DNA of 34,876 nucleotides, taken from positions 1 through 34,876 of IMG/VR virus record IMGVR_UViG_3300032893_000201; one strand, 5' to 3'. The DNA comes from a virus. Positions 160-34,088 of the stretch are shown piece after piece; the stretch's first letter is position 1; the number at the start of each line of letters is the position of its first letter. The notes under the pieces are model-generated. The model saw only the letters and a list, made by a program, of their open reading frames with translations. It had not been told where the DNA came from and searched no databases. A program made the position numbers and the translations under genes.

Positions 160-187
160 GACGCCGGGAATAGTTCATTCCCAACGC
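160..187 (-). repeat. 28-base palindromic element, copy A
   Basis: Read on the minus strand this is left arm GCGTTGGGAAT, five-base loop GAACT, right arm ATTCCCGGCGTC. It aligns without gaps to three other copies at 12859-12886 (+), 24296-24323 (+) and 34061-34088 (-). As RNA from the minus strand the arms pair over 11 positions, counting G-U pairs. It is followed on that strand by GAAAAC, as in copies C and D, and a little later by a run of six T. Unlike the other copies it points away from the gene on its right. Confidence 0.75.
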
Positions 188-213
188 TACCATTCATTTG
201 TGCCACGCGCGAT

Positions 214-242
214 TTGACTACTACCATTAGACCTGTTATCGT
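214..242 (+). promoter_or_regulatory. candidate sigma70-type promoter
   Basis: A -35-like TTGACT at 214-219 is followed after 17 bases by a -10-like TATCGT at 237-242 (5/6 and 4/6 matches to the consensus). The expected start point is near 249, only a few bases before the Shine-Dalgarno sequence of the first gene. The fit is by eye and the -10 box is weak. The position ahead of a long co-directional gene block makes a promoter plausible. Confidence 0.4.
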
Positions 243-266
243 TCCACCGTGGCAAAGGAGCTTGCG

Positions 267-644
267 ATGAAACACACTTGGCCCGTAGAAGTTAAGCGAG
301 CGCTTCAGCGAAGGATGCACGCGGCGAAGAGCGCAGGAAAAGAAGTGCCCACAATGGAATGGCTCGAGAAGCGTATAATCGATTGCAAGGGGCGATGCGA
401 ACATTGCGGCGTCGAGCTGAAGCTTGACAAGTCGCAGGGACACGAACAATGCTTATCGTTACATCATGATTTGATGCTAGGTATGATGATCGTTTGCTTG
501 GACTGCAATATAAAAGCAAGAGATACATTCGCCCCAGAAGCTAGAGATAAGCATTTCGAAAAGCTTCACGAAATCGTTCAAACGTTCAAACGAACTGGTG
601 GTGTTTGGAGGAAGCCAAGCTTTACTGTGCTCGAGGTACGATAG
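267..644 (+). CDS. endonuclease VII/HNH-like zinc-binding nuclease candidate
   Basis: A protein of 125 residues. The ATG at 267 is preferred over the in-frame GTG at 249 because AGGAG lies six bases upstream of it. Two zinc-knuckle pairs are visible, C44-x2-C47 and C77-x2-C80 followed by N81, with LSLHHD (63-68) between them. This order resembles the treble-clef fold of phage endonuclease VII/HNH proteins, where a D-H-D element sits between the Cys pairs and the second pair reads CxxCN. Here the first Asp is replaced by His (H66-H67-D68), so activity is uncertain. It lies directly before the TerS-like gene and its TAG overlaps that gene's GTG. HNH proteins beside terminase genes are common in phages and can assist packaging or cut host DNA. 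The role here is inferred. Confidence 0.5.
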   Translation: MKHTWPVEVKRALQRRMHAAKSAGKEVPTMEWLEKRIIDCKGRCEHCGVELKLDKSQGHEQCLSLHHDLMLGMMIVCLDCNIKARDTFAPEARDKHFEKLHEIVQTFKRTGGVWRKPSFTVLEVR

Positions 645-1156
645 TGGCAAACAGCGTTCAAGTGCAGCGCGTCTCGCACACCCACAACGCGATTCTCGAC
701 TTCATGGTCGCGAATCCGACGGCGCCGCTTTCGCACGTCGCGACGTACTTCGGCTATACCCAATCGTGGCTATCGACCGTCATCCACAGCGACGCGTTTC
801 AGGCGCGGCTGCGCGAGCGGCAGGACACCGCCTTCAACGAGGTCGTGGTCGCCGATCTGCGCGCGAAGATCACCGGCGTCGCGTCGCAAGCAATCGACAA
901 GCTCAGCGAGAAGCTCGCCGTAGCCGCCGACATTCGCGACGTGAAGGACAGCGCCGAAATGCTGCTGCGCTCGATCGGCTGGGGGCAGCCCAAGGCCGCG
1001 GCCGCGCCCGCGCGCCAGACGAACATCGTCGTGCTTGCGGACCGTGAGTCGTTAGCGCGTTCGCGCGAGCTCATGCAGGCCGCGTCGGAGATTGCTGATG
1101 CAACTGAACGACTTGCCATCGAACACAGCGCCGACAGCGCCGTCACGGCCAGCTGA
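644..1156 (+). CDS. terminase small subunit-like DNA-binding protein
   Basis: A protein of 170 residues starting at GTG 644. The start overlaps the preceding TAG and has GAGG seven bases upstream; the earlier in-frame TTG at 605 lies inside the previous gene without a good ribosome site. The N-terminal third carries a helix-turn-helix (PLSHVATYFGYTQSWLSTVI), the pattern typical of phage small terminase DNA-recognition domains, followed by charged helices and an alanine-rich section. Small terminase subunits bind the packaging site and regulate the large subunit. The TerL gene lies 5.8 kb downstream, beyond lysis and spike genes, rather than next to it. Assignment rests on the HTH pattern, length and position. 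A generic DNA-binding protein cannot be excluded. Confidence 0.6.
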   Translation: MANSVQVQRVSHTHNAILDFMVANPTAPLSHVATYFGYTQSWLSTVIHSDAFQARLRERQDTAFNEVVVADLRAKITGVASQAIDKLSEKLAVAADIRDVKDSAEMLLRSIGWGQPKAAAAPARQTNIVVLADRESLARSRELMQAASEIADATERLAIEHSADSAVTAS

Positions 1157-1634
1157 CTTCCGCCCCGCCGGAAATGTTCGATGGGCTATGCCATGCCACG
1201 AGCCCGGGTGGGCAGCCAAGCTCGCATTGTCGAACAACGGCGCCTTCGCCGCCGGACAGCGATACGAGGCGCGCGTGCACGAGCTTCTACTTGTTCAGTT
1301 TCCCGTTTCATACGTGCGCTCTCCATGGTTTGCTTTCTCGGGATCCGGAGGAGCACGTCATTGCCAGCCTGATGGGCTCTTGCTTGATTTTCGCAGCGGC
1401 AGCGTCACCATCGTCGAAATCAAGCTATACCATACTGAGCGTGCTTGGTGGCAACTCGAGCAGCTCTACAGACCCGTTATTTCTCGCGCATTTGGACCAC
1501 AATGGCGTGTGGCAACAGCTGAAGTATGTCGATTTTACGATCCTTCGATTTCAATACCCGCTCTCGTGCGACTCCACGCCGACTTGACGAAGTGCCGCGA
1601 GGACGAGTTTAACGTTCATATCAGGAGCGCATAA
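1098..1634 (+). CDS. PD-(D/E)XK superfamily nuclease-like protein
   Basis: A protein of 178 residues starting at ATG 1098 with GGAG seven bases upstream, overlapping the TerS-like gene by 59 bases in another frame. The core motif of restriction-like nucleases is visible: P91-D92-G, then a beta strand ending E107-I-K109, followed by a helix with glutamines (QLEQLY, 119-124) like the Q motif of RecB/lambda-exonuclease-type members. An upstream E in RYEARVHELL could complete the site. Such nucleases act in recombination, Holliday-junction processing or host DNA breakdown. The location between TerS-like and structural genes is unusual for a recombination exonuclease and suggests a packaging or DNA-end role. 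That last point is inference. Confidence 0.5.
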   Translation: MQLNDLPSNTAPTAPSRPADFRPAGNVRWAMPCHEPGWAAKLALSNNGAFAAGQRYEARVHELLLVQFPVSYVRSPWFAFSGSGGARHCQPDGLLLDFRSGSVTIVEIKLYHTERAWWQLEQLYRPVISRAFGPQWRVATAEVCRFYDPSISIPALVRLHADLTKCREDEFNVHIRSA

Positions 1635-2044
1635 TGCCCTTTGGCACTTTTGAAGCGGACTGGAACTCAATCCCCGATTGGTTTGCGCGCCTGTTTCAAT
1701 CGGGCTTCTTCACCAAGGGCCTGTTCATCTACGACAACAGCATCGGTGGCGCGAGCTTCGCGCCGGACTGGGCCAACGTTCAATACTACGACGTGGCCGT
1801 AGGCCAAGCCTTTACGGTTAGCAATCCCACGAGCGAAGCCGTGCCTGGACAGCTCGTCATGATCCATCTCTTCCAGGACGCGATCGGCGGCTGGGACATT
1901 ACGTTCGGCACAGCGTACAAGTTCCCAACTGCCTTTAGCAACGCGGGCCACGATGCCAGCACGAGAACGATGGTCGTGTTCGTCTGTGATGGGCATGGCT
2001 TTTACTGGGCGCTCGGCGCGAACAGCTGGGCATTGGAAGACTAA
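1634..2044 (+). CDS. small fibre-associated beta-sandwich virion protein
   Basis: A protein of 136 residues starting at ATG 1634 in a TAATG overlap, with AGGAG six bases upstream. The C-terminal half (TVSNPTSEAVPGQLVMIHLF, then ITFGTAYKF, then GFYWALGANSW) follows the pattern of the small beta-sandwich modules found at the end of many phage tail fibres. In those, a stretch of polar strands is followed by a 'vtfgtayK' strand and closes with a 'fyW..g' strand. It is therefore likely a fibre tip, fibre-attachment or capsid fibre protein. The spike gene lies one kilobase downstream. The exact position in the virion is not known. Confidence 0.45.
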   Translation: MPFGTFEADWNSIPDWFARLFQSGFFTKGLFIYDNSIGGASFAPDWANVQYYDVAVGQAFTVSNPTSEAVPGQLVMIHLFQDAIGGWDITFGTAYKFPTAFSNAGHDASTRTMVVFVCDGHGFYWALGANSWALED

Positions 2045-2071
2045 CCGCGCATTGCGCGAATGGAGGCGGCG

Positions 2072-2269
2072 ATGATACAGCAAGAAGGAATGATTATCAA
2101 ACAAGCGTCGGCATTGGCGGGCAAGGAGAATACCCTTCGCCAAAGCATGGTCGCTCGTATCGACTCGTACAAAGACAGCGTGAAGCAACTGGAGCGGCTT
2201 CTTTCGGTCTTGCCGGATGAGTTGCTCGACGTGTCGATGACCCAGGTCTATCGATTGCTGGGGCTATGA
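2072..2269 (+). CDS. small helical protein of unknown function
   Basis: A protein of 65 residues. The ATG at 2072 has GGAGG five bases upstream, which makes it better than the ATG at 2060. The sequence is almost entirely amphipathic helix, with heptad-like hydrophobics through SYKDSVKQLERLLSVLPDEL, so a short coiled coil is likely. No family was recognised. It is co-transcribed with the fibre-like gene before it and overlaps the lipoprotein gene after it by four bases (ATGA), which suggests coupled translation. Confidence 0.55.
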   Translation: MIQQEGMIIKQASALAGKENTLRQSMVARIDSYKDSVKQLERLLSVLPDELLDVSMTQVYRLLGL

Positions 2270-2628
2270 AAATGCGCGCGCTATGGCTTGCTTTGTTCGT
2301 GGTTTGCGTCGCTTGCGTCACGCCCAAATCCCCACAGGCCGCGCTCGCCGACAGCGAGATAGCCTTGACCAGCGCCGTGCAAACAGCAGACAACTATCTC
2401 GCGTCGCAATGTCAAGACGCGCATAGTGATGCTTGCGGCAAGGCGCTGACGTGGCACGTGACGATGCACGCGCGCGCGGAAGCCGCAGCTTCGCTGCTTA
2501 AGGCTGCGCATACCTCGCTCGACATCAACGACCCTGCAGCGATGCAATCGGCGCTTTCGACAGCGAACAGTCTGATAGCGCAGATCAACAGCATGGTTAA
2601 TGCGAAGCTGACGAAGGAGGTGAAATGA
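2266..2628 (+). CDS. small phage lipoprotein
   Basis: A protein of 120 residues with a hydrophobic signal segment (ALWLALFVVCVAC, 5-17) ending in a probable lipobox. C17 is preceded by V15-A16, although position -3 is Cys rather than Leu/Val/Ile, so the box is imperfect. The mature part is alanine-rich helix with a spaced cysteine pair (C49, C57). Small lipoproteins of this shape, with AV/AL-rich helices around a C..C loop, occur widely in tailed phages of Gram-negative hosts. Their function is not established. The next gene overlaps by ATGA. An outer-membrane spanin role cannot be ruled out, but no inner-membrane partner lies next to it. Confidence 0.5.
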   Translation: MKMRALWLALFVVCVACVTPKSPQAALADSEIALTSAVQTADNYLASQCQDAHSDACGKALTWHVTMHARAEAAASLLKAAHTSLDINDPAAMQSALSTANSLIAQINSMVNAKLTKEVK

Positions 2629-2831
2629 TCCCCGTCGGACTCATCATCGCGCTGGCGCAGAGCGCCGTGCAGGCAGTGCAAGCGATCCAAGCGGCGAACG
2701 TCATCAACGCCAAGCCTGATCCCACGCCCGAGGATTGGGCCGAGCTCGACAAGGCGCTCGACGCCGCATTGGCCGCGAGCACGGTTAAAGAACAAGCTAT
2801 AATGGCGATGCGCGCCGCGCAGACAAAATGA
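2625..2831 (+). CDS. small hydrophobic N-terminus protein, unknown
   Basis: A protein of 68 residues with a strong ribosome site (AAGGAGG before ATG 2625). Residues 1-25 are hydrophobic and alanine/valine-rich and could insert in or lie along a membrane. They are followed by PTPEDWAELDKALDAALA, an acidic helical pattern often seen in small phage proteins that follow the lipoprotein family. Overlap with both neighbours (ATGA on each side) places it in one translational block with the lipoprotein and the spike. The function is unknown. Confidence 0.5.
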   Translation: MIPVGLIIALAQSAVQAVQAIQAANVINAKPDPTPEDWAELDKALDAALAASTVKEQAIMAMRAAQTK

Positions 2832-4549
2832 TCGTATCGTTTCCCTTCTCAAAAACCTCATACGACGGCTCGGGCATCGAGCCCGCGTCGCTTGTGAAGG
2901 CGTTGCAGGACCTCGAGACCGCAGATACCGGCGCATTGACTGCGATAACGACGCCAGTCAACATCGTCAGCAATTCCGTCTATCCGTCCGATCAGACGCT
3001 GGTGTTTGTAGGACAGGGCGCACTGTCGCCTTCGAGCGGTGTTACCGTAACGCTCAATTGCAAGATCATTGCAGCGCCCGGCGCGAACATCTTCGATATT
3101 TCAAAGGGCGGCACGTTCAACGGCAACCCGCTCAACGATCGCGTTTACTCGACGTGGTTCGGTGCTGATCCAACGGGCGTCAACGATAGCGTCGCGGCGA
3201 TGCAAGCCTGGCTGACGTTTTGCAGCGGCAAACAGAAGCCCATTCCGGCGCAGGTGCCGGGACATTACAAGCTCGTGGGCCCGACCTCGTCACATAGCAA
3301 CCCGTTGCTAACCGTCGATAGCTACGCGAACAATGGCGGCGGCTTTGGTCTGCCGATGATCGAGGGCGTGCAGCGCGGCGGCAATCCATCGACCGACTAT
3401 AACTGCTGGTGGGATGCAAGCGGCTCACATCAAATACTCTACACAGAAATGTTCTCGAACATCGCGCCGCCCATCATCGCCTTCACCGGTGGCAGCGGCG
3501 AGATGAACTACGGCGGCATTCGCGACGTGCAGTTTACAGGCAATGGCCAGAACAGCTACGTACGTGTGCAGGACGCTGAGGGCGTGCAGGTCGAGCGGTG
3601 TACAGGCATCAATGGCTATTGGGCCGTGGAGGTATTTGCGCGCAATCCTGGCGGGCCGCCAACCGCCGGTGGCTATAACAGCGGCGCGACGGGCGGCTTT
3701 CCCGAGTGGAACCTCGTACGCGATTGTCGCTTTGCCGTAGGCCGCCACGGCATCGTTTACAGGCGTTGGTGCGCCGCAGACTATAGCGCGGCCGCCAACG
3801 GCTCGCTACACGGCAATCGTGTAGAGCGGACGTGGATCAATCTGCCCGCTGCCGATGGCGCCTGCGCCGTTTATATCTATCCTGGCGAGAAACTCTACAA
3901 TGGTTTCTTTGATATTGAAGTATTCTTCCACAGCGGCAGTACGCAGTATGCGATAGGCTTCGAACCATCGATAGATGGAAGAATGAATGCCATTCCGCCA
4001 ACAATCGATGGCTGTCTGCGCGCCGAGGGTGCACTTGGTCTCTGCAAGTGGGGCGGGCCGAACAATTACATAGCGTGGCTTGGGCGCGAGACCTCGCTGG
4101 GCGGGATTTCGTATGGCTCGCTCGTGCCGTGCTATTATGCAAATTGGCTCGGCTCGGAGGCCGGTGCTAGCAATGGTGTGCTGGTAATGTCGAGGCGGCC
4201 TTATAGTACTGTGCTCGGTGTTAATAGCGGTACAACGATAGTACACATAGCTGGCTCTGCATTCATTAGCGTTACGTTCCAAGCCGCGAACTACGAGTAC
4301 CGAATCGTTGGTAGCGCGTGGTCGAACAACTATGGCAACGCGGGTAATTGGACAGCGTGGACAGTATGGGCGGTGGCTAACGGTACTGGCTGGGGGCCTC
4401 CCACAATCTCTGTAGATAGCAATGGTAATGTGGTGGCGACGAATGCGAGCTGGCCCGCATCGACCGTTAGTTGTTACGTACAGGTTATTGAAGGGTTGCT
4501 GTCGCCACAGGCATACAGTAGCAATTTCAACGTGATGTATCCTTACTAA
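2828..4549 (+). CDS. tail spike, pectate-lyase-like beta-helix protein
   Basis: A protein of 573 residues. After a mostly beta N-terminal part (about 1-100) it contains YSTWFGADPTGVNDSVAAMQ (107-126). This is the entry pattern of the pectate lyase 3 superfamily of right-handed beta-helix spikes, in which an acidic G-x-x-D-S turn follows an aromatic strand. The following 300 residues are rich in Gly, Asn, Thr and short strands, as expected for beta-helix coils, and the C-terminus is beta-rich and Trp-rich. Such spikes bind and often cleave surface polysaccharide. Catalytic residues cannot be assigned by eye. The gene starts in an ATGA overlap and lies upstream of the packaging genes, separated from the main tail module. 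Confidence 0.7.
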   Translation: MIVSFPFSKTSYDGSGIEPASLVKALQDLETADTGALTAITTPVNIVSNSVYPSDQTLVFVGQGALSPSSGVTVTLNCKIIAAPGANIFDISKGGTFNGNPLNDRVYSTWFGADPTGVNDSVAAMQAWLTFCSGKQKPIPAQVPGHYKLVGPTSSHSNPLLTVDSYANNGGGFGLPMIEGVQRGGNPSTDYNCWWDASGSHQILYTEMFSNIAPPIIAFTGGSGEMNYGGIRDVQFTGNGQNSYVRVQDAEGVQVERCTGINGYWAVEVFARNPGGPPTAGGYNSGATGGFPEWNLVRDCRFAVGRHGIVYRRWCAADYSAAANGSLHGNRVERTWINLPAADGACAVYIYPGEKLYNGFFDIEVFFHSGSTQYAIGFEPSIDGRMNAIPPTIDGCLRAEGALGLCKWGGPNNYIAWLGRETSLGGISYGSLVPCYYANWLGSEAGASNGVLVMSRRPYSTVLGVNSGTTIVHIAGSAFISVTFQAANYEYRIVGSAWSNNYGNAGNWTAWTVWAVANGTGWGPPTISVDSNGNVVATNASWPASTVSCYVQVIEGLLSPQAYSSNFNVMYPY

Positions 4550-4561
4550 AGGAGATTCAAA

Positions 4562-4891
4562 ATGGACATGCAGTTGGATTGTGAAGTAACCCACAATGGT
4601 AAACCGTTTTTGAGTAACTCTCTTACCTACCACAACGTGGACGCGGGCGCGGTGGCTTTCATTACGAAGCACGGTATGAACCTTCTCCCCCATCTGAGTG
4701 CAAAGCATACACAGGGAGCAGAGTTCCAAGTTTCGCTTAGTGCGTCGATCGACGGCAAGTCGTCAGGCCCGGCGGTCGCCGCGCAGGTATCGCGGAAGGG
4801 CTTCTTGGAGCTGGAGCGAAAGCTATTCGACTTCTTGCCACAGGTTGTGGATGAAGCAGAGAAGCTCGCGAAAGCAGGGGGGAAGATATAG
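4562..4891 (+). CDS. hypothetical protein, 109 residues
   Basis: The start is secure: AAAGGAG lies seven bases before ATG 4562. The first half is predicted beta (EVTHNGKPFLSNSLTYHNVD) and the last 35 residues form an amphipathic charged helix (LELERKLFDFLPQVVDEAEK). No known family was recognised. It follows the spike with a 12-base gap and is the last gene before the 96-base gap at 4892-4987. A chaperone or small adaptor of the spike is possible by position only. Confidence 0.5.
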   Translation: MDMQLDCEVTHNGKPFLSNSLTYHNVDAGAVAFITKHGMNLLPHLSAKHTQGAEFQVSLSASIDGKSSGPAVAAQVSRKGFLELERKLFDFLPQVVDEAEKLAKAGGKI

Positions 4892-4910
4892 CCCCCCGTC
4901 AGGGCTGGGC

Positions 4911-4939
4911 TTGACGCATCATTGCGGCGGCGTTTTAAA
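4911..4939 (+). promoter_or_regulatory. candidate sigma70-type promoter in the 4892-4987 gap
   Basis: TTGACG at 4911-4916 is followed after 17 bases by TTTAAA at 4934-4939, giving moderate matches to both boxes. It lies in one of the few gaps in the rightward block, ahead of the run of small genes, the lysis gene and TerL. A short GC-rich palindrome (GCGCG-CTA-CGCGC, around 4952-4964) lies between it and the next ribosome site. The call is by eye only. Confidence 0.3.
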
Positions 4940-4987
4940 GGGCTTGCATTTGCGCGCTACGCGCGCTCGGTCGAAAAGGAGTTTTGA

Positions 4988-5281
4988 ATGGCAACCGTAA
5001 CAGTATCATGGACAACTGTACCACAGAACTTTCCAGCAGGCACGATCATTGGCAAGACGAGCGTTGTGCTGAGCGGTCCGTCGGCCGGGACGATGATGGT
5101 GGACGCGAGCCCAGCCGTCTTCCCGAACGTGAACGGCGACGATCCGAACAATCCCTATCAGGCCATCATTCAGCTGCTCGATGGCGCGGGGAACGCGTTG
5201 GGCGCGGCGCTGACCGTCAAGTCGGTCGAGCCAGTCGTCGGACAGGTACCTGATACAGGTAGCGTGACCATCGCGCCGTAA
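4988..5281 (+). CDS. small Ig-like beta-sandwich protein
   Basis: A protein of 97 residues with a strong ribosome site (AAAAGGAG before ATG 4988). The sequence alternates hydrophobic and polar strands throughout (TVTVSWTTVP, IIGKTSVVLSG, YQAIIQLLDGAGNALGAALT, SVTIAP) with no cysteine or helix. This is what a single immunoglobulin-like or fibronectin-like domain looks like. Such domains decorate phage capsids and tails and bind cell-surface sugars weakly. The family was not identified. It begins the block that follows the candidate promoter at 4911. Confidence 0.45.
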   Translation: MATVTVSWTTVPQNFPAGTIIGKTSVVLSGPSAGTMMVDASPAVFPNVNGDDPNNPYQAIIQLLDGAGNALGAALTVKSVEPVVGQVPDTGSVTIAP

Positions 5282-5301
5282 CGCACTAGCGGAGGTGCGG
5301 C

Positions 5302-5496
5302 ATGGCAACGATATTAAATATCAACATTGACCTGGATGACAGTGAGGACGAGAGACACGAAATTCGCCTCATGCGTCTCCAGGTGCGCTTGCTTGCGGAG
5401 CAACTCGAGGTGCTGAAACACATCGAGGCGCGACTGGGAGGGCAGCAGGTGAAGGCCCAGATTCCTTCCGCTGGAACGATAATGGTGACAAAATGA
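5302..5496 (+). CDS. small coiled-coil protein
   Basis: A protein of 64 residues; GGAGG lies six bases before ATG 5302. The middle (ERHEIRLMRLQVRLLAEQLE) has a clear heptad pattern, giving a short coiled coil flanked by an acidic N-terminus and a beta-like end. No family was recognised. Its stop overlaps the ATG of the following 47-residue gene (ATGA). Confidence 0.5.
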   Translation: MATILNINIDLDDSEDERHEIRLMRLQVRLLAEQLEVLKHIEARLGGQQVKAQIPSAGTIMVTK

Positions 5497-5636
5497 AGCC
5501 ACAGTCGACTAACCACATGAAGAAGAGCAACTTTTCACGCACGAGGCGGGGCGCGGCGACGCCCAATCCTGTAGTGAAGCGAAGCGCGAAAACGCCTGGC
5601 GTGAAGGGACGGGGCAAAAAGAGTGGTGGATATTGA
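5493..5636 (+). CDS. short basic protein, 47 residues
   Basis: A short open frame running from an ATG that overlaps the previous stop (ATGA at 5493) to a TGA that overlaps the ATG of the lysis gene (TGATG at 5634-5638). The product is strongly basic (MKKSNFSRTRRG near the start, VKGRGKKSGGY at the end), with Lys/Arg making up roughly a third. Perfect packing between two overlapping starts, with no gap, supports real coding despite the small size and a weak ribosome site. It resembles in composition the other small basic proteins at 6280-6674. The function is unknown. Confidence 0.45.
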   Translation: MKPQSTNHMKKSNFSRTRRGAATPNPVVKRSAKTPGVKGRGKKSGGY

Positions 5637-6450: not shown

Positions 6451-6452
6451 AA

Positions 6453-11604: not shown

Positions 11605-11606
11605 AG

Positions 11607-12839
11607 GTGAACAATTTCATTCTTAGTTTTCTTTTCAACCTGCTAACCGGCGAAGCCTTCAAGCTTCACTGGTTTCAGGGACTGCGTGGTACTGGCGATT
11701 GGGGCACGGACGAACGGCCGAAGAACTTTCGCGAGATGATCCTGTGGCGCAACCCAAACGGAAGCGCCCCGCTAACCGCCCTTCTAAGCAAGACCGCAAG
11801 CAGAAAGGTCGACGACGCTGAGTTTGCGTGGTGGGAAGAAGAGCTGGCGCCGATTCGCCTCGTGCTGGCGAGTCAGGCCGCGACGACAAGCATCACGTCG
11901 TTGGTGGTTAGCAGTGGGGCGAACGCACTCGTACCGGGGGATATACTGTTGGCGGAAGCTGCGACGGATACGTCGACGTACGAGCTGGTGGCGGTGGTCG
12001 CGGTGACGAGCGATACGAACTTCACTATCAGCCGTTCGTTTGCCAATACGACTGCGGCGTCGATGGCAACGAGCGCCGGGCTGACACGGGTCGGAAATGC
12101 GTTCGCGGAAGGCACAACGAGTCCAAGCGTTTCGGCGAACAACCCGACAAAGCTGAAGAACTATTGTCAGATCTTCAAAACGGCCTACGATATTACGAAT
12201 ACGGCGAAGCTGACGTATGCGCGCACCGGCGATCCGCTGAAGAATGACAAGAAGCGGAAGATGTTTCAGCACAGCGTCTCGATGGAGCATGCGATGCTGT
12301 TCGGGGTGGCTTACGAGACGACGGGTAGTAACGGTAAGCCGCTGCGTTCGATGGGCGGGCTGCGACAGGCCATCGCGACCAATGTTACAGTGTATTCTAC
12401 GACACCGACAGAGAGCACATTCCTCGCTGCGATTCAGCCAATGTTCGACTACGATGGAGGTGGTGGAAATCAACGGCTGGCGCTGTGCGGCAATGGTATG
12501 TTGACGGGCCTGAACAAGATCGCCAAGAGCGGCATGTCGATTCGTGTTGACGAAGTCGTGAAGCTGTATGGTATGAATCTTCAGAGATGGATTCTGCCGC
12601 AAGGCGAGATCTATATTCGTTCGCATCCGCTAATGAACGTTCATCCTCGCTATACATACAGCGCGTTTATGATCGATCCCTCGTCTCTGGTCTATACGTA
12701 TTTGCGTGATACGCATCTGGAAGATAATATTCAGGCGCCAGATAGCGATGACCAGAAGGGGCAATGGCTGACCGAGTGTGGGCTTGAGTGGCATCACGAG
12801 CGCACGATGGCCTATCTGGGGAACTTTGTAGTGCCTTGA
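11607..12839 (+). CDS. major capsid protein, SU10/DUF5309 type
   Basis: A protein of 410 residues starting at GTG 11607, with AAAGGA eight bases upstream. The central section has features of the DUF5309/SU10-type HK97-fold capsid proteins. These are KNYCQIFKTAYDITNTAKLT, then a charged helix with KKRKMFQHSVSMEHAMLFG, then GLRQAIATNV and the 'ALCGNGMLTGLNKIAK' helix, then GEIYIRSHPLMN and the C-terminal TECGLEWHHERTMAYL. It directly follows the scaffold-like gene. A strong terminator-like hairpin lies 16 bases after the stop, as is common behind highly expressed capsid genes. Confidence 0.85.
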   Translation: MNNFILSFLFNLLTGEAFKLHWFQGLRGTGDWGTDERPKNFREMILWRNPNGSAPLTALLSKTASRKVDDAEFAWWEEELAPIRLVLASQAATTSITSLVVSSGANALVPGDILLAEAATDTSTYELVAVVAVTSDTNFTISRSFANTTAASMATSAGLTRVGNAFAEGTTSPSVSANNPTKLKNYCQIFKTAYDITNTAKLTYARTGDPLKNDKKRKMFQHSVSMEHAMLFGVAYETTGSNGKPLRSMGGLRQAIATNVTVYSTTPTESTFLAAIQPMFDYDGGGGNQRLALCGNGMLTGLNKIAKSGMSIRVDEVVKLYGMNLQRWILPQGEIYIRSHPLMNVHPRYTYSAFMIDPSSLVYTYLRDTHLEDNIQAPDSDDQKGQWLTECGLEWHHERTMAYLGNFVVP

Positions 12840-12855
12840 TTTGAGGTGGGTGTTT

Positions 12856-12893
12856 CCGGCGTTGGGAATATTCCATTCCTGACGCCGGTTTTT
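12856..12893 (+). terminator. Rho-independent terminator-like hairpin after the capsid gene
   Basis: A 14-base-pair stem (CCGGCGTTGGGAAT with ATTCCTGACGCCGG, two G-U pairs) around a five-base loop is followed at once by TTTTT (12889-12893). By structure this is a good intrinsic terminator for transcription through the capsid gene. Its core is also copy B of the repeated 28-base element. It is the only copy whose arms extend to 14 pairs and the only one with an adjacent T run, so termination may be a special property of this copy. Confidence 0.65.
12859..12886 (+). repeat. 28-base palindromic element, copy B
   Basis: Left arm GCGTTGGGAAT, loop ATTCC, right arm ATTCCTGACGCC. It lies between the capsid and glycosyltransferase genes and reads in their direction. 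Nine bases separate it from the GGAG ribosome site of the next gene. It aligns without gaps to the copies at 160, 24296 and 34061. Confidence 0.85.
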
Positions 12894-12904
12894 CCGGAGA
12901 AAGC

Positions 12905-18824: not shown

Positions 18825-18836
18825 AGGAGCTAGAAA

Positions 18837-20578: not shown

Positions 20579-20591
20579 GGAACTTGCAGCC

Positions 20592-21491: not shown

Positions 21492-21501
21492 GTAATAGAT
21501 C

Positions 21502-22437: not shown

Positions 22438-22438
22438 T

Positions 22439-22957: not shown

Positions 22958-23385
22958 AGACAGAACTGCATGGCGTGCCAGCAGAGTTCGTAGAGAGCGT
23001 GTGGTTCGACGTAGCGCCGCTCTTGCAGATGGCGATCGATCAGGCTGGCGAGACGGATCTCGAACGGACGCTCGCACGATTGAAAAGCCGCGACCAGCAG
23101 CTGTGGGTTGCAGTTAACGAAGATAACGATGCGATTGTTGCGGCGCTGACGACGGAGGTTGTGTCGTACGACTTGCGAAAGATTGTACGGCTCGTGCATC
23201 TCGGTGGGTGCGATCTGCCAGAGATTGCGCGGCATTTAGAGTGGATTGGCGAGTGGGCACTGGCACATGGCGCTACGCGTATCGAAGCATATTGTAGACC
23301 AGGCGTCACTCGCACCCTGGCGGCGAACGGGTTCAGAAAGCGGCTTGATGTGATAGAGTGGGATTTGCGAAGGAAGCTAACATGA
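22954..23385 (+). CDS. GNAT-like acetyltransferase fold protein
   Basis: A protein of 143 residues starting at ATG 22954 (ATGA overlap). The pattern is that of small phage GNAT proteins: a helical start; SRDQQLWVAVNEDNDAIVAA as the first strands; VRLVHLGG as the strand before the acetyl-CoA-binding helix; LEWIGEWALAHGATRIEAYC; and a closing VTRTLAANGFRKRLDVIEWD. The classical Q/RxxGxG/A loop is not obvious, so catalytic ability is uncertain. It lies between fibre and ejection genes. Phage GNATs in this position may modify virion or host proteins; this is inference. Confidence 0.55.
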   Translation: MKTELHGVPAEFVESVWFDVAPLLQMAIDQAGETDLERTLARLKSRDQQLWVAVNEDNDAIVAALTTEVVSYDLRKIVRLVHLGGCDLPEIARHLEWIGEWALAHGATRIEAYCRPGVTRTLAANGFRKRLDVIEWDLRRKLT

Positions 23386-24296
23386 GTGGCGGTGGACAGA
23401 ACACGACGCAGACGATTCAAAAGAGCAATCCCTGGCAGCCGCAGCAGCCGTATCTTGAACAGATAATGCAGCAGGCACAATCGCTCTATAACAACAAGAG
23501 CCAGTGGCCTCAACCCTTCCCGTATCCGTCAACGGCTGCGCCGAACCCGACGCAGGTACAGGCGCAGAACATGCTATCAGGCGCGGCGACGGGGCCTACA
23601 CAATCGCTCGCGAATGAGGGCGCGGCGGCGGAGCAGTTCAGCTTGGGGCCTGTATTGTACCCGCAGTCCAACCCGGCGTTGCAGGCCTCGATCCAGGGCG
23701 CCATCGATCCGCTAATGCGCAACTGGCAGAATACCGTGCTGCCTTCGATACAGAGCAATTTTCAGATGGCTGGGCAGCCAGGGAGCACGAGGCAGGGAGT
23801 TGCGGAGGGCATAGCGGCGACGAACCTCAATCAGCAGATTGCGGATACGACGGCGCAGATGGAGTCGAACGCCTATGGGCAAGGGTTGACGGCGCAGGGA
23901 CGAGCGTTGGCGCTGTTGCCGGAGATTCAAGCCGCGCAAGCGACGCCCGCAACGCAGCTGGGTGCGGTGGGCGGACAGCAGCAGGCGTATATACAGGCAT
24001 TGTTGAACCAGGCCCTGGGTAATTGGAACTATCAGCAGCAGTTGCCATATCAGCAGCTGGCGCAGTATGCGAACCTGGTCGAGGGGCCATTTGGCGGGTC
24101 GAGCACGGGGACGGGGATCGGAGAGCAGGGCTTGACGAGCCAGCTGCAGTCGTTGCTCGGTACGGGGCTAATGGGTGCGGGGCTGTACGGGATGTTGGGA
24201 GGAGGAGGGTTGTTTGGCCTCGGCGCGGATGTTGGAATGACTGGGCCGGCGCTGGCTCCGATAGATGCGGCTGCAGCAGCTACGATGTTTGCGTGA
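23382..24296 (+). CDS. internal virion (ejection) protein, Gln/Ala-rich
   Basis: A protein of 304 residues from ATG 23382 (ATGA overlap with the GNAT gene). It is very rich in Gln, Ala, Asn and Gly, with long helices (LQASIQGAIDPLMRNWQNTV, LNQQIADTTAQMESNAYGQG) and a Gly-rich hydrophobic C-terminal section (LMGAGLYGMLGGGGLFGLGA) that could insert in a membrane. It heads a row of four genes of similar composition ending in the giant polyvalent protein. This matches the internal proteins that short-tailed phages eject to build a channel across the host envelope. Confidence 0.6.
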   Translation: MSGGGQNTTQTIQKSNPWQPQQPYLEQIMQQAQSLYNNKSQWPQPFPYPSTAAPNPTQVQAQNMLSGAATGPTQSLANEGAAAEQFSLGPVLYPQSNPALQASIQGAIDPLMRNWQNTVLPSIQSNFQMAGQPGSTRQGVAEGIAATNLNQQIADTTAQMESNAYGQGLTAQGRALALLPEIQAAQATPATQLGAVGGQQQAYIQALLNQALGNWNYQQQLPYQQLAQYANLVEGPFGGSSTGTGIGEQGLTSQLQSLLGTGLMGAGLYGMLGGGGLFGLGADVGMTGPALAPIDAAAAATMFA

Positions 24297-24323
24297 CGTT
24301 GGGAATGAAGCATTCCTGACGTT
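24296..24323 (+). repeat. 28-base palindromic element, copy C
   Basis: Left arm ACGTTGGGAAT, loop GAAGC, right arm ATTCCTGACGTT. The element begins at the last base of the preceding stop codon and ends six bases before the GGAG of the next gene. As RNA the arms pair over 12 positions around a three-base loop. No T run follows (GAAAAT instead, as in copies A and D), so it is not a normal intrinsic terminator. Confidence 0.85.
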
Positions 24324-24340
24324 GAAAATGGAGATGCAAA

Positions 24341-24766: not shown

Positions 24767-24767
24767 T

Positions 24768-26456: not shown

Positions 26457-26457
26457 C

Positions 26458-29400: not shown

Positions 29401-32100
29401 ATTGCGAAGAAGAATCCGCGCGTGCCCTCGTTACATAGCTACGTTCAGCATCAGATGGAAATGTGGCAGGCGAAGCAAGCATGGACGACGCGTGCGAACC
29501 GCACGCTGAAGAAGTGGGAGAAGCTGGGCAAGGAACAATCGCAGCTGCTGTCGCAGGCGAAGCTTGAAGAGACAGTCAACGGGCGCTTTTATGCGCGCGA
29601 AGAGCTGCTTCGGCGCGGTATGACGCCGAAGACGCTGGAGGTTTATGATCAGATACAGAACGACTTCAAAGACGTGCTGACGGAGATGGAGAATGCGAGC
29701 GTCGCGCAGGCTGTGAAGTTGATGCAGGAAGGCAAGACGCCTTTGGGCACTAATCCGATAGCGGATATTCGGAAAGACTTCGCGACGATGCGCAACCGGC
29801 CGTACTTTCCGCTGGCGCGTTTCGGTGAGTACGGCGTTTCGATTAAGGCCAATCGCGACCTGGAATGGAACGGAAAGCAGTACAAGAAAGGACGCAAAAT
29901 CGCCGTAGAGATGCATGAGACGGGCATCGAACAGCGCGCGCGACTGCAAGAGCTGCGGGCGGAGCTTGGCCAAAGCGCAACGGTTAGCGATTTCTACGTG
30001 AACGATCGTACGTTCGAGGGCGTGCGCGGGCTGCCGAGCGAGCTAGCTGCTATGGTCGCGAAGCGTCTCAACCTCGCGCCGGAACAGCTCCGGGCGCTGC
30101 ACGAAATGCAGCTCGATCTCGCACCCACGCAGAGCTTCATTAAGCATTTGAAGAAGCGGCGTGGGATTGAAGGCTTCTCGCAGGACGCTATACGTGCCTA
30201 CGCAGCATATTTTCAGCGTGGTGCCGGCTGGCTGAGCCGACTGCAGTTCATGGACAAGCTCGACGCGGATGTTCGTGCTACGCGGGAGAGTGCTCGAGAG
30301 CTCGCTGAACAAGGTTTGTACTCCCGTCCACGAGAACGATTGGCCGCGTACATGGATCGTCAACTTGAAAGGATAAGACATCCTGAAAGTGACCTTTCTG
30401 CGCTGCGCGCTTTTGGTTTCATTTGGTATTTGGGCTTTAACGTCAAGGCCGCGGCTGTCAATATGACACAGGTGCCGATGATGACTTTACCCTATTTGTG
30501 GCACAGGCACGGTTTGGCGAGAACGACTGCGAGCTTGGCTAAAAGTTATGCGAAAGTTGCCGGGAATGCCCTCGACGGATTGCCAGAACGGATCAAGGAT
30601 AAGGTCACATTCAGAGGCAAGAAGCCACAGTTCATCTCCCCAGAAGAACAGCAGATGATGAAGCAGGGGGAGAGCGAGGGATGGCTGGACGAGAGTCAAG
30701 CTTCCATGCTTGCGGGATATAGCGATCCATTCGTGCTGGCAAGGTTGGCAGGCGGCGAGAAGTGGTATCGTGACATCAAGCGCTGGGGCGCGTACAGCGG
30801 CTGGATGTTCCAGCGGGCCGAGATGATCAACCGCAAGGTTACGGCGCTGTCTGCGTATGAATTGGAGCGTGGGGCTGGTGCGAGCCATGACGAGGCTGTC
30901 GAGGCTGCGCACGCCGCTGTCAATACCACGCAGTTCGAATACGCTGCGTGGAACAGGCCCGAAATGATGCAGGGAAAAAAGAGTGCCTTGTTTCTCTTTT
31001 CGCTCTACAACCAGCATGTTTTGCATTTCGCCTTCGGCGGTGATCCGGCGTGGAAGAAGTTCTGGATGGTTCAGCTCGCGATTGGCGGCATACTCGGCCT
31101 GCCAGGTTCGCAGGATCTGCTCGACGTTTTCGATTTGGCGACTGAGAAGATTGCAGGAATAGAGCCATTCAATTCGAAGCGCAGCTTGCGGCTGTGGCTC
31201 GATGAGCATCTGGGACAATATATGCAGGCATTGCATGTGAACTCCGATCTGCTGATGCATGGGATATCGCGCTATAGCTTCGGATTGACGGCGCTCGGCG
31301 CGCCGGCGCTTGATTTCAGTGGTAGTGTGTCGCTGGGCAATATCAAGGTCGGGCCGCTGCAGGATCCCACAAGCGCACCCTTTGGAGCTACTCCGAAAAG
31401 TGGAGATGAGTTTCTGTCTAGAAAGATTCAAGATCTAGGCGGGCCGCTGGTTAGCTTGCCCTTCGCGCTCATTCGTGGGTTGCTCGATGACAAGACGCCC
31501 GACCAGTACAAGCGCTTTTCGGGCGCCATCCCCGTCACGATGAAGGCTATTGGCGATGCTTGGAAGTCTGGCCAAGAGCCAAAAGCTGGCTCGCTGGAGG
31601 AGCGTTTGCCGTGGTGGCTGCAGGGCATGGGGGGCTATACCGATCGCAAGGGGGATGTTACTTTCCCTTATGATTTTGAGGATGCTGAGCAGCGAGCCGA
31701 ACACAATGCGAAGTACTTCAATTTCACTTCGACGGCCGTTAATAAACAGCTGGAGCGACATGGCGAAGAAAGTAAGATCGTTGAGTTCTATCAGGAAAAA
31801 AGAGCGCACTTGCTCGCCTCGCTCGCTATGGCGCGACAAGTGCACGATCGGGAGGCCATTAGCGACGCCTTCTCGGAGATACGCAAGTTCAATGAAACCG
31901 TGCCACTGAAAGAGCTGGGCATCACGGGAGCGTCGATTCAAGAGACGTTGAAGCGACGTGAGACGACGAAATATAAGATTGAGCATCAGATTCCTCAGCA
32001 GAAGCGATTGTATCGGCTGTATCGCCAGATGCAGCGCGAAGACGAGGACGTCACGACGAACCCTTCCGCGCCTGGGGCACTCGAGCGCACTGGTCCGTGA
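26458..32100 (+). CDS. giant polyvalent internal virion protein (zincin-like and PLxRFG domains)
   Basis: A protein of 1880 residues, one sixth of the window. Residues 1-110 are Pro/Ala/Val-rich and disordered. About 165-340 is Gly/Ala-rich and hydrophobic (GAAAGAAFGAAGPAMQAPG) and likely membrane-active. A metalloprotease-type motif H666-E-M-L-H670-H671 lies in a helix (DAVLHEMLHHTEKMLP). About 900-1100 is charged and helical. PLARFGEYG (about 1118) is the signature of the PLxRFG domain found in very large phage proteins. FNVKAAAVNMTQVPMMTLPY (about 1324) and a hydrophobic stretch (MVQLAIGGILGLPGS) follow. Such proteins are packaged inside the head and ejected with the DNA. Zn-peptidase activity against peptidoglycan or protein is plausible but unproven. 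It overlaps the convergent HTH gene by 50 bases. Confidence 0.75.
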   Translation: MALSISAEEIYPAPPPGMLPAPGSPPGMLTPPNPKAKLPTREAMQVEPEQEIADTAVPVPAPAAPQSVPASEFTAAQEVPVQESVPAGQVEDMVPLGSNIFSKEYWKRQATRMAEGIGKQTLSAELLLRDIGGALGGTPNEQRKEELRAGIREAEEHPTRVAEQESVPSEIVSGLVGMGPQAVGLVTSPFGMMATFGLGQFIDTYGRGRAEGASGEKSALTGALAGGESAGLAWAMGPAGKAAAGALGRLGMDRVIGTFGDEAVKHIVANALVGAGIMPSMNEAVALTEKVAYRPDMTWGEYLQEVEKRLPREALVGAAAGAAFGAAGPAMQAPGRLAGRLAEWQVGRRAQEGVTRLPASVAEERGVAPEQVFPPVAAGELPGRAVPEPSTVEGVAAPPGQAEASPVLAGLEEAPEAALRPRTYEERRELYERRSAEASAEIERRLSERRATLQDRETLEPFVKGQEVEVQTSEGQWLKTKITDIDESRGEVRTEPTLGLDAFKPNDVRLPNERRGAGDYAQFDPYANQREVPNDPLKVSALRRLRSLQKLHDEGRIGSEGYIDSTKELLKALEEKRAAQADVGPEFLARGPAWIQERLIRAGRTGELAPEAVDMALWFLGKNPAIGRDLAVSIRELERGKAGTYDPVQRIMKLARQSRMTDAVLHEMLHHTEKMLPLRVRQGVINSWSRALARETRKAEAQAAKPSATQEMKTRARALRELPLAVVGDDMSRRMVFEFFKRGVLKHGDYQLSSPSEFWAMNASRVVEARYRAEGWVQEAKQWLMEFLQKLKALTGMRSDATVLRGLRALSKTTGEQTARELLQGSPMTREEIRSSHMQAGEKIANALAPEGELDDAFVRHVLEGVEATPEQWRELSDLLNERREGPRVALEEQRELINGLFDERSGISAEDLIDVLRENLINDPMKLRTDLAKVQAAAFFPDTLRRDAQFMRDQKRLRERLDVDVDRFSWLTLKAQTLLQIAKKNPRVPSLHSYVQHQMEMWQAKQAWTTRANRTLKKWEKLGKEQSQLLSQAKLEETVNGRFYAREELLRRGMTPKTLEVYDQIQNDFKDVLTEMENASVAQAVKLMQEGKTPLGTNPIADIRKDFATMRNRPYFPLARFGEYGVSIKANRDLEWNGKQYKKGRKIAVEMHETGIEQRARLQELRAELGQSATVSDFYVNDRTFEGVRGLPSELAAMVAKRLNLAPEQLRALHEMQLDLAPTQSFIKHLKKRRGIEGFSQDAIRAYAAYFQRGAGWLSRLQFMDKLDADVRATRESARELAEQGLYSRPRERLAAYMDRQLERIRHPESDLSALRAFGFIWYLGFNVKAAAVNMTQVPMMTLPYLWHRHGLARTTASLAKSYAKVAGNALDGLPERIKDKVTFRGKKPQFISPEEQQMMKQGESEGWLDESQASMLAGYSDPFVLARLAGGEKWYRDIKRWGAYSGWMFQRAEMINRKVTALSAYELERGAGASHDEAVEAAHAAVNTTQFEYAAWNRPEMMQGKKSALFLFSLYNQHVLHFAFGGDPAWKKFWMVQLAIGGILGLPGSQDLLDVFDLATEKIAGIEPFNSKRSLRLWLDEHLGQYMQALHVNSDLLMHGISRYSFGLTALGAPALDFSGSVSLGNIKVGPLQDPTSAPFGATPKSGDEFLSRKIQDLGGPLVSLPFALIRGLLDDKTPDQYKRFSGAIPVTMKAIGDAWKSGQEPKAGSLEERLPWWLQGMGGYTDRKGDVTFPYDFEDAEQRAEHNAKYFNFTSTAVNKQLERHGEESKIVEFYQEKRAHLLASLAMARQVHDREAISDAFSEIRKFNETVPLKELGITGASIQETLKRRETTKYKIEHQIPQQKRLYRLYRQMQREDEDVTTNPSAPGALERTGP

Positions 32101-32281
32101 GGGCGCAGCAGCAGCGCCCGGCGCGGATTTCGCGACGCCAATAGCGGACGCATTCGCGGCTGACGCCTAGGCGCGCTGCGAGAGCGCCGTTGCGTAGAGA
32201 GCGGTATTGGTCGAACCACTCGAAGATGCAGCAATAGCCCGAGGTCGCCGCAAGGAACGCTATGATGCCGTTTCGGCTCAC
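32051..32281 (-). CDS. small helix-turn-helix protein
   Basis: A protein of 76 residues. GTG 32281 is chosen because it overlaps the upstream stop (GTGA) and has AGGGG five bases before it; an ATG at 32305 lacks a ribosome site. NGALAARLGVSRECVRYWRR (31-50) is a clear helix-turn-helix of the kind found in phage regulators and resolvase-type DNA binders, followed by a Cys-rich RCCCALTDQC. It is the last gene of the leftward replication operon. Its 3' end overlaps the giant protein gene by 50 bases on the opposite strand. It is a candidate binder of the repeated palindromes, by proximity only. Confidence 0.55.
   Translation of the reverse strand: MSRNGIIAFLAATSGYCCIFEWFDQYRSLRNGALAARLGVSRECVRYWRREIRAGRCCCALTDQCARVPQARKGSS
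32101..32119 (+). other. GC-rich hairpin at the convergent gene ends
   Basis: GGGCGC, loop AGCAGCA, GCGCCC begins at the first base after the giant gene's stop. There is no T run after it, so intrinsic termination is doubtful. It could slow polymerase or act with Rho where the two operons converge. On the minus strand it lies within the HTH gene. Confidence 0.3.
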
Positions 32282-32391
32282 TTTCGCCCCTGCGCTTCCA
32301 GCCATACAGATGGACGATCCATTATGATGTACGGCTCACCGTATAAGCGAGATTCGCTGTCGAACAATTCGCTAATCTGATCATCAGTCAC
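32278..32391 (-). CDS. short ORF, 37 residues, in the replication operon
   Basis: The frame runs from GTG 32391, which overlaps the stop of the 149-residue gene (GTGA), to a TGA that overlaps the GTG of the HTH gene. GGAGG lies ten bases before the start. The product begins MTDDQISELFDSESRLYGEP and ends PSVWLEAQGRK; it is acidic at the start and helical. Exact overlaps on both sides and a ribosome site argue that it is expressed. No family was recognised. Confidence 0.45.
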   Translation of the reverse strand: MTDDQISELFDSESRLYGEPYIIMDRPSVWLEAQGRK

Positions 32392-32837
32392 GGCTTCTGC
32401 GCCTCCAGCCAGTCGGCAATGTAAGACGGGCCCAGATACTGTAGGTCTTCGTGGTCAGCGCTCTCACGCAACAACCGCACGCACTCGGCGTGCTGCTCGC
32501 GTTTGGCTACATGAATAGCATTTTCTAATTTTTGTATTCTTGCCATTAGGTCCGCTACGATAGGATCTGGTGGTAGCATTAGCTTCTCGCGCTCTTCTGC
32601 GAGCGCTGTAACAATCTGATCTCTGTGCCAGTCGCACATATGCATCAACTCGTCGTTGTCGTCGAACGAGCAGGCGCAGTGGGTGCCACCGCGGGCTTTG
32701 CCGCGCTCATCTGCGCGGGCGGCGGCGATGGCGGCGAGTACATCTTCCTCTTTCCAGATTTTTTCCTTGAAAGGCGGAAGTAGTCCAAACTGAGTCGCTG
32801 AACAGTGCTCCAGTGCTATCTCGAGATCAGTTTTCAT
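32388..32837 (-). CDS. hypothetical protein with Cys/His cluster and coiled coil
   Basis: A protein of 149 residues from ATG 32837, overlapping the ATPase gene by 11 bases. A helical N-terminus (WKEEDVLAAIAAARADERGK) leads to a compact HCACSFDDNDELMHMCDWHR, where C-x-C and C-x2-H could hold a metal ion. A coiled coil (LMARIQKLENAIHVAKREQH) follows. Co-transcription with replication genes suggests an accessory role. The function is not known. Confidence 0.55.
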   Translation of the reverse strand: MKTDLEIALEHCSATQFGLLPPFKEKIWKEEDVLAAIAAARADERGKARGGTHCACSFDDNDELMHMCDWHRDQIVTALAEEREKLMLPPDPIVADLMARIQKLENAIHVAKREQHAECVRLLRESADHEDLQYLGPSYIADWLEAQKP

Positions 32838-34041
32838 TGCTCACATTTCCTTGTATGGTTCGTCTATCGATCAATATTACATCAGAGCCCTGAACGAGGG
32901 TGATTACGAGGCCCGCGTTGACACTGCCGATGATGGCGTCCTCGATGTCGCGGTACGCGAACAATCGCGAGAGCTCACGCACGACAGTCTGGCGAGAGAT
33001 GCGCTTGTGCGACTGCATGATTTCGAGAAAGCGCGTCTGAACGCGCGCGTTTTCGTTCTGGCCGACGTGCGCGAAGATTTTGTTCATATCTTCCTCCGCG
33101 CCTTCGAGCATTCCGAGCGCGAAGCGCATGTCGTTGAGGGTAATGACGAGCGAATCGCGACGGGAGAGAGAGATGATCATAGCGAGCTTGTGTAGATGCG
33201 TCTGCTTCCGGGCCAAGTATACCTCGAAATAGCGATCGTGCGCGGAGCCATATGATGAGCAGATCTTCTGATACCAGTCCACGCCCCAATCGCGCGCGTC
33301 GGGCTCGATTATGAAGTTGCCCCCGAGCGAAGCCATTGTTTGCAAATCTTCCAATAGTTTCGTTCGCTGCTCGTGGAAATGCGGCGGCAGATGCTCGCCG
33401 GGGTAGGCAACGAGCTGGCGCTTCGTGTCGGCGTAGATTATGATGCAGCGCGCCGTCAATCCCCCTCCAACCATCGACGTGGGAACGTTCTCGCTGAACC
33501 ATGAGGGCGTTGTGCCTGCGATGATGTTGATGCAGGGATTTTCGATCATGTCGCTGCCCTGCGTTTTCGTACCTTTCTTGAAGGCAGAGCTCTTCGAGTC
33601 TCCGCCCCAGATGGACGTCAAGATGTCTACGAGATCGCGGTCTTGTGGGTTGAGGAAGGTGCCGAGTTCCGAAACGAAGTACGACACGGCACTCTGCGGC
33701 GTCATGATGCCGTTGTGCTCGAACATCGCAGTCGACGATGCGAGATCGAAGATAAGAAACTGCCAGGTCAAAGCATCGGCTCCGATGCGGATGCCTTTGA
33801 TTTCGCTGAGCAAATCCTTGCCTATGTTGATCGTAGTCGACTTGTTGACAATGCCAGGCGGCGCCACGAGGACGATGTAGAAGTTCGGCACCCAGACGAA
33901 ATGTCCCATTTGCATCATGACCTGTCGGCGCATGACGGAGGCGATAGTCGCTACGCCTGTCCAGAAATAGAACTTCAATGGTGCTTCGCCGATCGAGGCG
34001 TATTCCGTGAACGCCTCGAGCCAGTCTGGATAGTTTCGCAA
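32827..34041 (-). CDS. DUF3987-like primase/helicase ATPase
   Basis: A protein of 404 residues from TTG 34041, chosen because GGGGAG lies six bases upstream; TTG 34068 (413 residues) is the alternative and lies inside the palindromic element. The N-terminal WLEAFTEYASIGEAPLKFYF and FVWVPNFYIVLVAPPGIVNK-STT place it with DUF3987-type P-loop ATPases, used by phages as replicative helicase or primase-helicase partners. The P-loop reads PPGIVNKSTT: Asn stands where the classical motif has the Gly before Lys. An acidic strand follows (AVSYFVSELGTFL), then a NPCINIIAGTTPSWF sensor-like strand and a C-terminal winged-helix-like part (HKRISRQTVVRELSRLFAYR). It lies just downstream of the polymerase. 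Confidence 0.6.
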   Translation of the reverse strand: MRNYPDWLEAFTEYASIGEAPLKFYFWTGVATIASVMRRQVMMQMGHFVWVPNFYIVLVAPPGIVNKSTTINIGKDLLSEIKGIRIGADALTWQFLIFDLASSTAMFEHNGIMTPQSAVSYFVSELGTFLNPQDRDLVDILTSIWGGDSKSSAFKKGTKTQGSDMIENPCINIIAGTTPSWFSENVPTSMVGGGLTARCIIIYADTKRQLVAYPGEHLPPHFHEQRTKLLEDLQTMASLGGNFIIEPDARDWGVDWYQKICSSYGSAHDRYFEVYLARKQTHLHKLAMIISLSRRDSLVITLNDMRFALGMLEGAEEDMNKIFAHVGQNENARVQTRFLEIMQSHKRISRQTVVRELSRLFAYRDIEDAIIGSVNAGLVITLVQGSDVILIDRRTIQGNVSNEN

Positions 34042-34060
34042 TGAAAGCTCCCCGATTTTC

Positions 34061-34088
34061 GGCGTCAAGAATGGAACATTCCCAGCGT
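34061..34088 (-). repeat. 28-base palindromic element, copy D
   Basis: Read on the minus strand: left arm ACGCTGGGAAT, loop GTTCC, right arm ATTCTTGACGCC, then GAAAAT. It lies in the gap between the polymerase and ATPase genes, in their direction of transcription, nine bases before the GGAG ribosome site of the ATPase gene. The orientation is flipped together with the operon, which suggests a function that depends on strand, as for an RNA signal or a promoter. Confidence 0.85.

Follow-up and report, generated by a model that had tools for sequence, protein, structure and literature searches.

Palindromes at gene junctions of a podovirus-like phage record and its relatives as probable dispersed operators

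The stretch of DNA analysed here, called the window throughout, is the IMG/VR virus record IMGVR_UViG_3300032893_000201, which is 34,876 bases long and classed as linear, a class that in virus records often means a fragment. Its + strand carries a podovirus-like late block with terminase, portal/adaptor, major capsid protein, tail-type proteins, a DNA-ejection protein and a 1,880-amino-acid protein with a DarB-like region, and its - strand carries a DUF3987 primase gene and part of a DNA polymerase A gene. Four copies of a 28-base palindrome lie between these genes, and palindromes of the same kind, written in other letters, recur at the same places in related phages. We consider it likely that they are dispersed operators, meaning palindromic sites at which a single dimer- or tetramer-forming protein of the phage binds and controls several transcription units. 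The copies in the window are as follows.

160..187, - strand: copy A, which reads leftwards, out of the gap upstream of a small-terminase-like gene.
12859..12886, + strand: copy B, in the 65-bp gap from the major capsid gene to the next gene, within a 14-pair stem (12856-12888) that is followed by TTTTT.
24296..24323, + strand: copy C, whose first base is the last base of the DNA-ejection-protein open reading frame; the next start codon is 17 bases on.
34061..34088, - strand: copy D, in the gap from DNA polymerase A to the DUF3987 primase gene, with GGGGAG and a likely TTG start just downstream.

The genes beside them, with their profile matches, are these.

605..1153, + strand: small-terminase-like gene across gap A, a name based only on its position and the look of its N-terminus.
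11607..12839, + strand: major capsid protein gene (phrog_1328, E 5.7e-50), which flanks copy B and served as the query for fetching relatives.
23358..24296, + strand: DNA-ejection-protein gene (phrog_4287, E 2.6e-20), ending at copy C.
32827..34068, - strand: DUF3987 primase-like gene (phrog_14296, E 3.5e-65; PF13148, E 4.7e-14), downstream of copy D.
34095..34724, - strand: DNA polymerase A fragment (PF00476, E 1.7e-22), upstream of copy D.

The listed start of the primase gene falls inside copy D, and comparison with Microcystis phage Mel-JY34 points to the in-frame TTG at 34041 as the probable true start. A PHROG scan of the small-terminase-like gene gave no match (0 families), and a protein encoded between copy A and that gene, at 249-644 on the + strand, has a weak endonuclease VII-like match. 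Because the long contigs of relatives measure about 40-50 kb, roughly 9-10 kb of this phage, the early region, is probably missing from the window, so that its own binder and its own promoters lie out of view.

A preliminary description, made from the letters of the window, had reported the four copies at these coordinates and strands as a gap-free alignment placed at gaps between genes, and all of this holds. The pattern CGYTGGGAATN5ATTCYYGRCG, derived from the copies themselves, matches only these four places in the window without mismatches, and with up to three mismatches it still finds the same four and no others (7 matches when both strands are counted); the expectation, taken from 100 dinucleotide shuffles, is 0.05. 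A pattern-free search with loose thresholds recovered the four-member family at the same places; in its controls, four copies appeared in 1 of 100 dinucleotide shuffles and three copies in 9 of 100. The four window copies are real and non-random. The GAAAA trailing copies A, C and D and the GGAG found 6-9 bases after copies B, C and D were likewise confirmed. All four copies agree in orientation with transcription if copy A is read leftwards; the sites of relatives are too symmetric to orient in this way. The statement that all four fold as RNA did not survive for copy D, which has two A-C mismatches and folds poorly (-5.7 kcal/mol). Only copy B combines a GC-rich stem with a T run, copies A, C and D having GAAAA instead directly after the stem, and an Rfam scan of the window gave no match.

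The capsid protein query returned 64 loci from IMG/VR, 42 of which were scanned as fetched only, below full length. Twenty-seven records were examined at length: the window itself, four named phages and 22 IMG/VR contigs, two of which were read to just short of their end. By capsid protein the nearest named relatives are Mel-JY34 (54% identity) and Vibrio phage VS-ABTNL-3 (49%); Pseudomonas phage PaMx41, of the Fredfastierviridae, stands at 27%. The exact letters of the window do not form a family in relatives, as only 2 of 30 records hold a match with up to three mismatches, at one place each; what recurs is the kind of element and its places. Applied strictly to the 28 letters, the test of refutation set by the preliminary description would therefore have gone against the element. 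A one-mismatch match in G027 was set aside, since it lies inside a structural gene and outside any family in that record, and a match in L005, the one contig that an exact-sequence search of viral contigs yielded, was dismissed as chance, since it lies inside an open reading frame of a contig whose genes look, by eye, like tail genes of another kind of phage.

Eighteen of the 27 records carry their own set of two to seven palindromes of 25-35 bp, 82 copies in all. In 15 records the family scores above the best shuffled control of every record (controls up to 9, families 12-55; five block-shuffled controls per record). The families of G018 and Mel-JY34 were found by searches without shuffled controls, and that of Mel-JY34, a named phage with a recorded host, is statistically among the weaker ones; G027 holds two alike copies and weaker groups that do not exceed the controls. 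Read from the outside to the centre, the typical half-site is CGTTGGGAAT in the window, TGGGACGGTGATTA in G016 and G020, TGTGG-ATTATAT in G018 and G024, GGGCGG-TTATT in G007 and ATTATTG-ATCTTG in G009 and G014. The list of 82 leaves out two weak sites of G007 (8025, 34453), second pairs in G012 (6790/34189) and G023 (11825/10249), score-5 pairs of G022, Mel and Kuura, the G019 site 15632 and two further groups of G027. De novo search gave no family in nine records (G002, G005, which is partial, G006, G021, G022, G025, VS-ABTNL-3, PaMx41 and Kuura), and palindromes over strong promoters, looked for in G002, G021, G022, G025, G006, VS-ABTNL-3, G005, G014 and MW202489, were in no case convincing.

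Across the 18 records, 69 of the 82 copies lie outside conserved open reading frames, though these make up 72% of the sequence; of the 13 inside, six are read as falling in over-long 5' ends. By our own reading, copies recur at four places in the 18 family-bearing records: the gap before terS in 13, the position directly 3' of the capsid gene in 9, the polymerase/primase gap in 9, and a gap between exonuclease-like and Sak4-like genes, so named from family search, in 7. Copies A, B and D of the window occupy the terS, capsid and polymerase/primase places, and copy C follows the ejection gene. Several members of a protein family of about 175 amino acids (family 12, for instance G016 174-659 and 45276-45782) adjoin the terS gap; the family occurs in 19 of 27 records, often twice per genome, and a PHROG scan of two G016 members gave a weak match of unknown function for one and no match for the other.

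The letters behave differently from the places. Arm identity within a genome is 0.80, a value partly built in because similarity was used to find the families. When copies from different clades are compared, those that share a junction (0.514, 166 pairs) resemble each other no better than those at other junctions (0.513, 2,865 pairs), random pairs reaching 0.428. The letters of a palindrome belong to its genome and not to its place, which is the pattern expected of sites that change together with one trans-acting factor per phage. Mobile repeats were rejected as an explanation, since the sites recur at the same junctions and their letters follow the genome.

Some copies lie on promoters. Eleven of the 82 coincide with near-consensus sigma-70 promoters scoring at least 7.0; random noncoding points do so in 55 of 3,600 cases (odds ratio 10, p 1e-7). 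This statistic includes copies that share a genome or belong to sister genomes and are not independent of each other. An earlier test with shuffled flanks had placed 7 of 108 copies at or below p 0.01 and 9 at or below p 0.05. The promoters include TTGACA-17-TATAAT at G020 38,972 and TTGACA-18-TATAAT at G016 1,964 and G012 5,757. At these promoters the palindrome overlies the spacer, the -10 box or the start region, positions at which a bound protein would block the polymerase.

Together with the recurring places and the genome-specific letters, this overlap favours recognition by a protein and an operator, both of which were among the functions first suggested for the element. One phage protein would bind palindromes across the genome. 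Bound over strong early sigma-70 promoters, as seen in relatives, it would obstruct host RNA polymerase and so turn the early genes off; six relatives have such a promoter upstream of the candidate binder gene described below. In gaps inside the replication and late blocks, as for copies A to D, a bound site would act as a roadblock or an insulating site, and the dyad that follows the capsid gene would in addition form a terminator-like RNA hairpin.

The same sites could be imagined as activator sites, at which the protein would turn up weak promoters of middle or late genes in the terS, capsid and polymerase gaps, while repressing the early promoters that the site overlaps; p4 of phi29 is a dual switch of this activator/repressor kind. 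Several gap copies do lie 13-27 bases upstream of a start codon, and some, in G018 and G024, have TATAAT within the right arm and no -35 box. No promoter partner scoring at least 6.5 is found at the capsid or polymerase/primase gaps, however, and the palindromes there would overlap a promoter and not sit upstream of it, so we judge activation unlikely. Promoters of a phage RNA polymerase of the T7 or N4 type would also be genome-specific repeated sites that precede gene groups, yet the present sites are palindromic and some overlap host-type promoters; PF00940 matched 0 of 24 records in a search whose control also matched nowhere. The hairpin promoter among the functions first suggested has, as a site of such a polymerase, no support, and we regard such promoters as exceedingly improbable. 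The spread of copies along the genome, the seven that lie within genes and the frequent copy beside terS would suit DNA maintenance sites bound by a partition, replication or packaging protein, but the promoter overlap beyond chance and the concentration at recurring gaps between gene blocks make this very improbable as well.

Whether the dyad is read as DNA or as RNA can be approached through its imperfect pairs, since a dyad selected as an RNA hairpin would favour G-U over A-C in the transcript strand. In 34 copies of relatives, oriented by hand from neighbouring genes or promoters, G-U pairs number 22 and A-C pairs 18; from this lack of bias the dyad is read as DNA, and the earlier idea of a pure RNA hairpin that processes mRNA or stabilises its 5' end is disfavoured. 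The window's own copies, which share one asymmetric consensus, point the other way, with G-U 10 against A-C 2 (p 0.04).

The copy after the capsid gene bears on RNA hairpins, whether as factor-independent terminators or as stabilisers of mRNA ends. The eight bases that follow capsid-gap copies contain on average 3.7 T (n=9), and those after copies in the terS and polymerase/primase gaps 1.9 (n=19, with 10 of the 13 terS copies entered; p 0.002); the stems of capsid-gap copies are mostly strong, some of them extended. Eighteen of the 27 records lack a copy immediately 3' of the capsid gene, and in 13 of these we read the gap as holding an ordinary intrinsic terminator. The other five comprise G009, with a hairpin and a poor T tail, G022, with a palindrome without a T run, G015 and G021, with nothing clear, and PaMx41, in whose record a terminator after the capsid gene is annotated. 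Copy B and most capsid-gap copies thus resemble intrinsic terminators in stem and T-rich tail, whereas copies elsewhere mostly have no T run, other copies overlap promoters, and in G007, G011 and G012 the capsid gene is followed by a terminator and the palindromes lie elsewhere. Taken with the pairing counts of relatives, this makes it quite unlikely that the family as a whole consists of RNA hairpins. The terminator role put forward in the preliminary description is supported as a second role for copy B, with its 14-pair stem and T run. From its sequence, the capsid-gap copy looks like an operator that also serves as a terminator.

Our best candidate for the binder, by a modest balance of probability, is a protein of about 73 amino acids from the early region. 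This family (family 22) has an RGRP/RGRK-like arm in most members and two predicted helices, and appears to be ribbon-helix-helix-like. A hidden Markov model built from 12 members matches every one of the 15 family-bearing records in which the early region is present, 10 of them being in the seed of the model, and also 4 of 8 tabulated records without a palindrome family. In the resulting table, which leaves out the window and the partial G005, G014 and G015, 15 records have both candidate and family, four the candidate only, none the family only and four neither (Fisher p 0.008, phylogeny ignored). A PDB profile search with the candidate gave five matches at E <=1, best E 0.0097, all of them ribbon-helix-helix proteins, one of them under that name; a search with a 19-row alignment gave four of four. 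In the AlphaFold monomer model, helices 21-31 and 43-62 are predicted with high confidence and no strand is assigned. The size of the candidate, its pair of helices behind an N-terminal segment in the place of the strand, and its PDB matches point towards ribbon-helix-helix regulators (CopG family, NikR, EndoAI); it departs from them in the weakness of those matches, the lack of a strand in the model and the lack of a fold-search match. Arc and Mnt of phage P22 are regulators of the ribbon-helix-helix kind.

The position of the candidate gene also fits. In G007 it starts 31 bases after a promoter-borne copy, and in G012, G016, G020, G027 and Mel such a copy precedes it by 1-3 kb, promoter and gene pointing the same way, position and direction being what was compared; the Mel promoter upstream of the gene scores 6.9. 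The phage helix-turn-helix protein considered at first as the binder may be a small Cys-rich protein encoded at 32054-32305 (-) of the window, adjoining the primase gene, with weak helix-turn-helix matches. Its family occurs in only 8 of 27 records and is therefore unlikely to be the general binder.

Several results count against this combination of operators and binder. Seven copies lie truly within genes; the giant virion gene accounts for five of them and G029 for the remaining two, one in the 3' tail of its candidate gene and one in a different gene. Of all 82 copies, 71 score below 7.0 as promoters, and no sigma-70 promoter was found over any of the four copies of the window, in which the early region is not included. 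G002, G021, G022 and G025 have the candidate protein and no palindrome family. The best PDB match is modest in E-value; a Pfam scan gave a match below the cut-offs in one of seven candidate members and nothing in six; and Foldseek with the model returned a single match at E 9.8, no usable fold match. Operator similarity correlates with candidate similarity (r 0.45) no better than it does with general relatedness (r 0.49), leaving a partial r of 0.19 (p 0.10), and G019 and G029 have near-identical operators (0.89) and candidate proteins only 0.31 alike. As a separate observation, the copies in the giant virion-protein gene stand at G016 26207, G020 15259, G015 12038, G011 25159 and G023 38164, those of G016 and G020 at a similar distance from the gene start, about 1.1 kb.

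Dispersed repressor sites are known from other phages. The stoperators of cluster A mycobacteriophages such as L5 and Bxb1 are described as genome-specific repressor sites, some of them over early promoters and most of them not promoter-associated and in short intergenic gaps, with one near the repressor gene, and the similarity of their motifs tracks whole-genome similarity (PMC9283540, PMC6550527). The present sites are like them in that one motif occurs many times over a phage genome, mostly in gaps (4 of 4 copies in the window, 69 of 82 in the 18 records), and in that some copies of relatives lie, by sequence, over early promoters (the 11 of 82 against 55 of 3,600 given above; 0 of 4 in the window). 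They are unlike them in being palindromes of 25-35 bp where stoperators are asymmetric and 13 bp long, in numbering 2-7 per record where L5 has more than twenty, and in having as candidate binder a ribbon-helix-helix-like protein, known here from its sequence, in place of a two-domain repressor. The SPBRE of SPbeta are dispersed phage-specific repeats in promoter regions that were first seen in silico and later found to be sites of the MrpR repressor (PMC10516654). The present repeats are likewise dispersed and phage-specific, whereas SPBRE is a 15-bp motif of a temperate Bacillus phage and MrpR has a tyrosine-recombinase fold. The tyrosine integrase/recombinase profile PF00589 matched 0 of 24 records, several of them partial, with a control of 14 of 14 and serine integrases outside the search. 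On this comparison the arrangement works, as we read it, like stoperators and SPBRE, yet as tested it is a member of neither.

A more far-reaching, and on balance doubtful, possibility is that this podovirus clade has a convergent stoperator-like silencing network, with a small, fast-changing ribbon-helix-helix repressor, long palindromes over early promoters and in gaps, and a capsid-gap copy that doubles as a terminator. If so, the network could hold an unintegrated phage genome silent, and it would be a molecular basis to seek for the episomal pseudolysogeny reported for phage Shea. Shea, of the distantly related Fredfastierviridae, is reported to persist as an unintegrated pseudolysogen (PMC13348215). 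A link between that state and the present sites is a suggestion, and in its relative PaMx41 no such family was found. Dispersed operators that silence a whole genome are known from temperate phages such as L5 and SPbeta, and the set in at least 15 diverse podovirus records looks independent of them. As letters change between phages and places stay, the records form a test set for co-change of repressor and site, and the sites offer a candidate mechanism for early-gene shut-off, possibly dormancy, in a poorly studied group of phages. An earlier report of such sites or of their repressor in these phages was not among the matches listed, the 2016 paper on transcription mapping of PaMx41 being outside the literature covered.

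Some minor observations concern the relatives themselves. G010, G016, G021, G024 and Kuura have identical stretches near both record ends, which suggests direct terminal repeats; direct terminal repeats of 606 bp are reported for Kuura (PMC9959647). A polymerase/primase relative, MW202489.1 (L138), has an annotated ogr/delta-like zinc finger, and the label 'class D beta-lactamase' on an open reading frame of about 60 amino acids in the same record looks doubtful. Finally, the 7-kb contig L134 (JALTNO010000078.1), whose capsid protein is 55% identical, was binned with a metagenome-assembled genome of the Rhodobacteraceae, a possible host hint for one relative.

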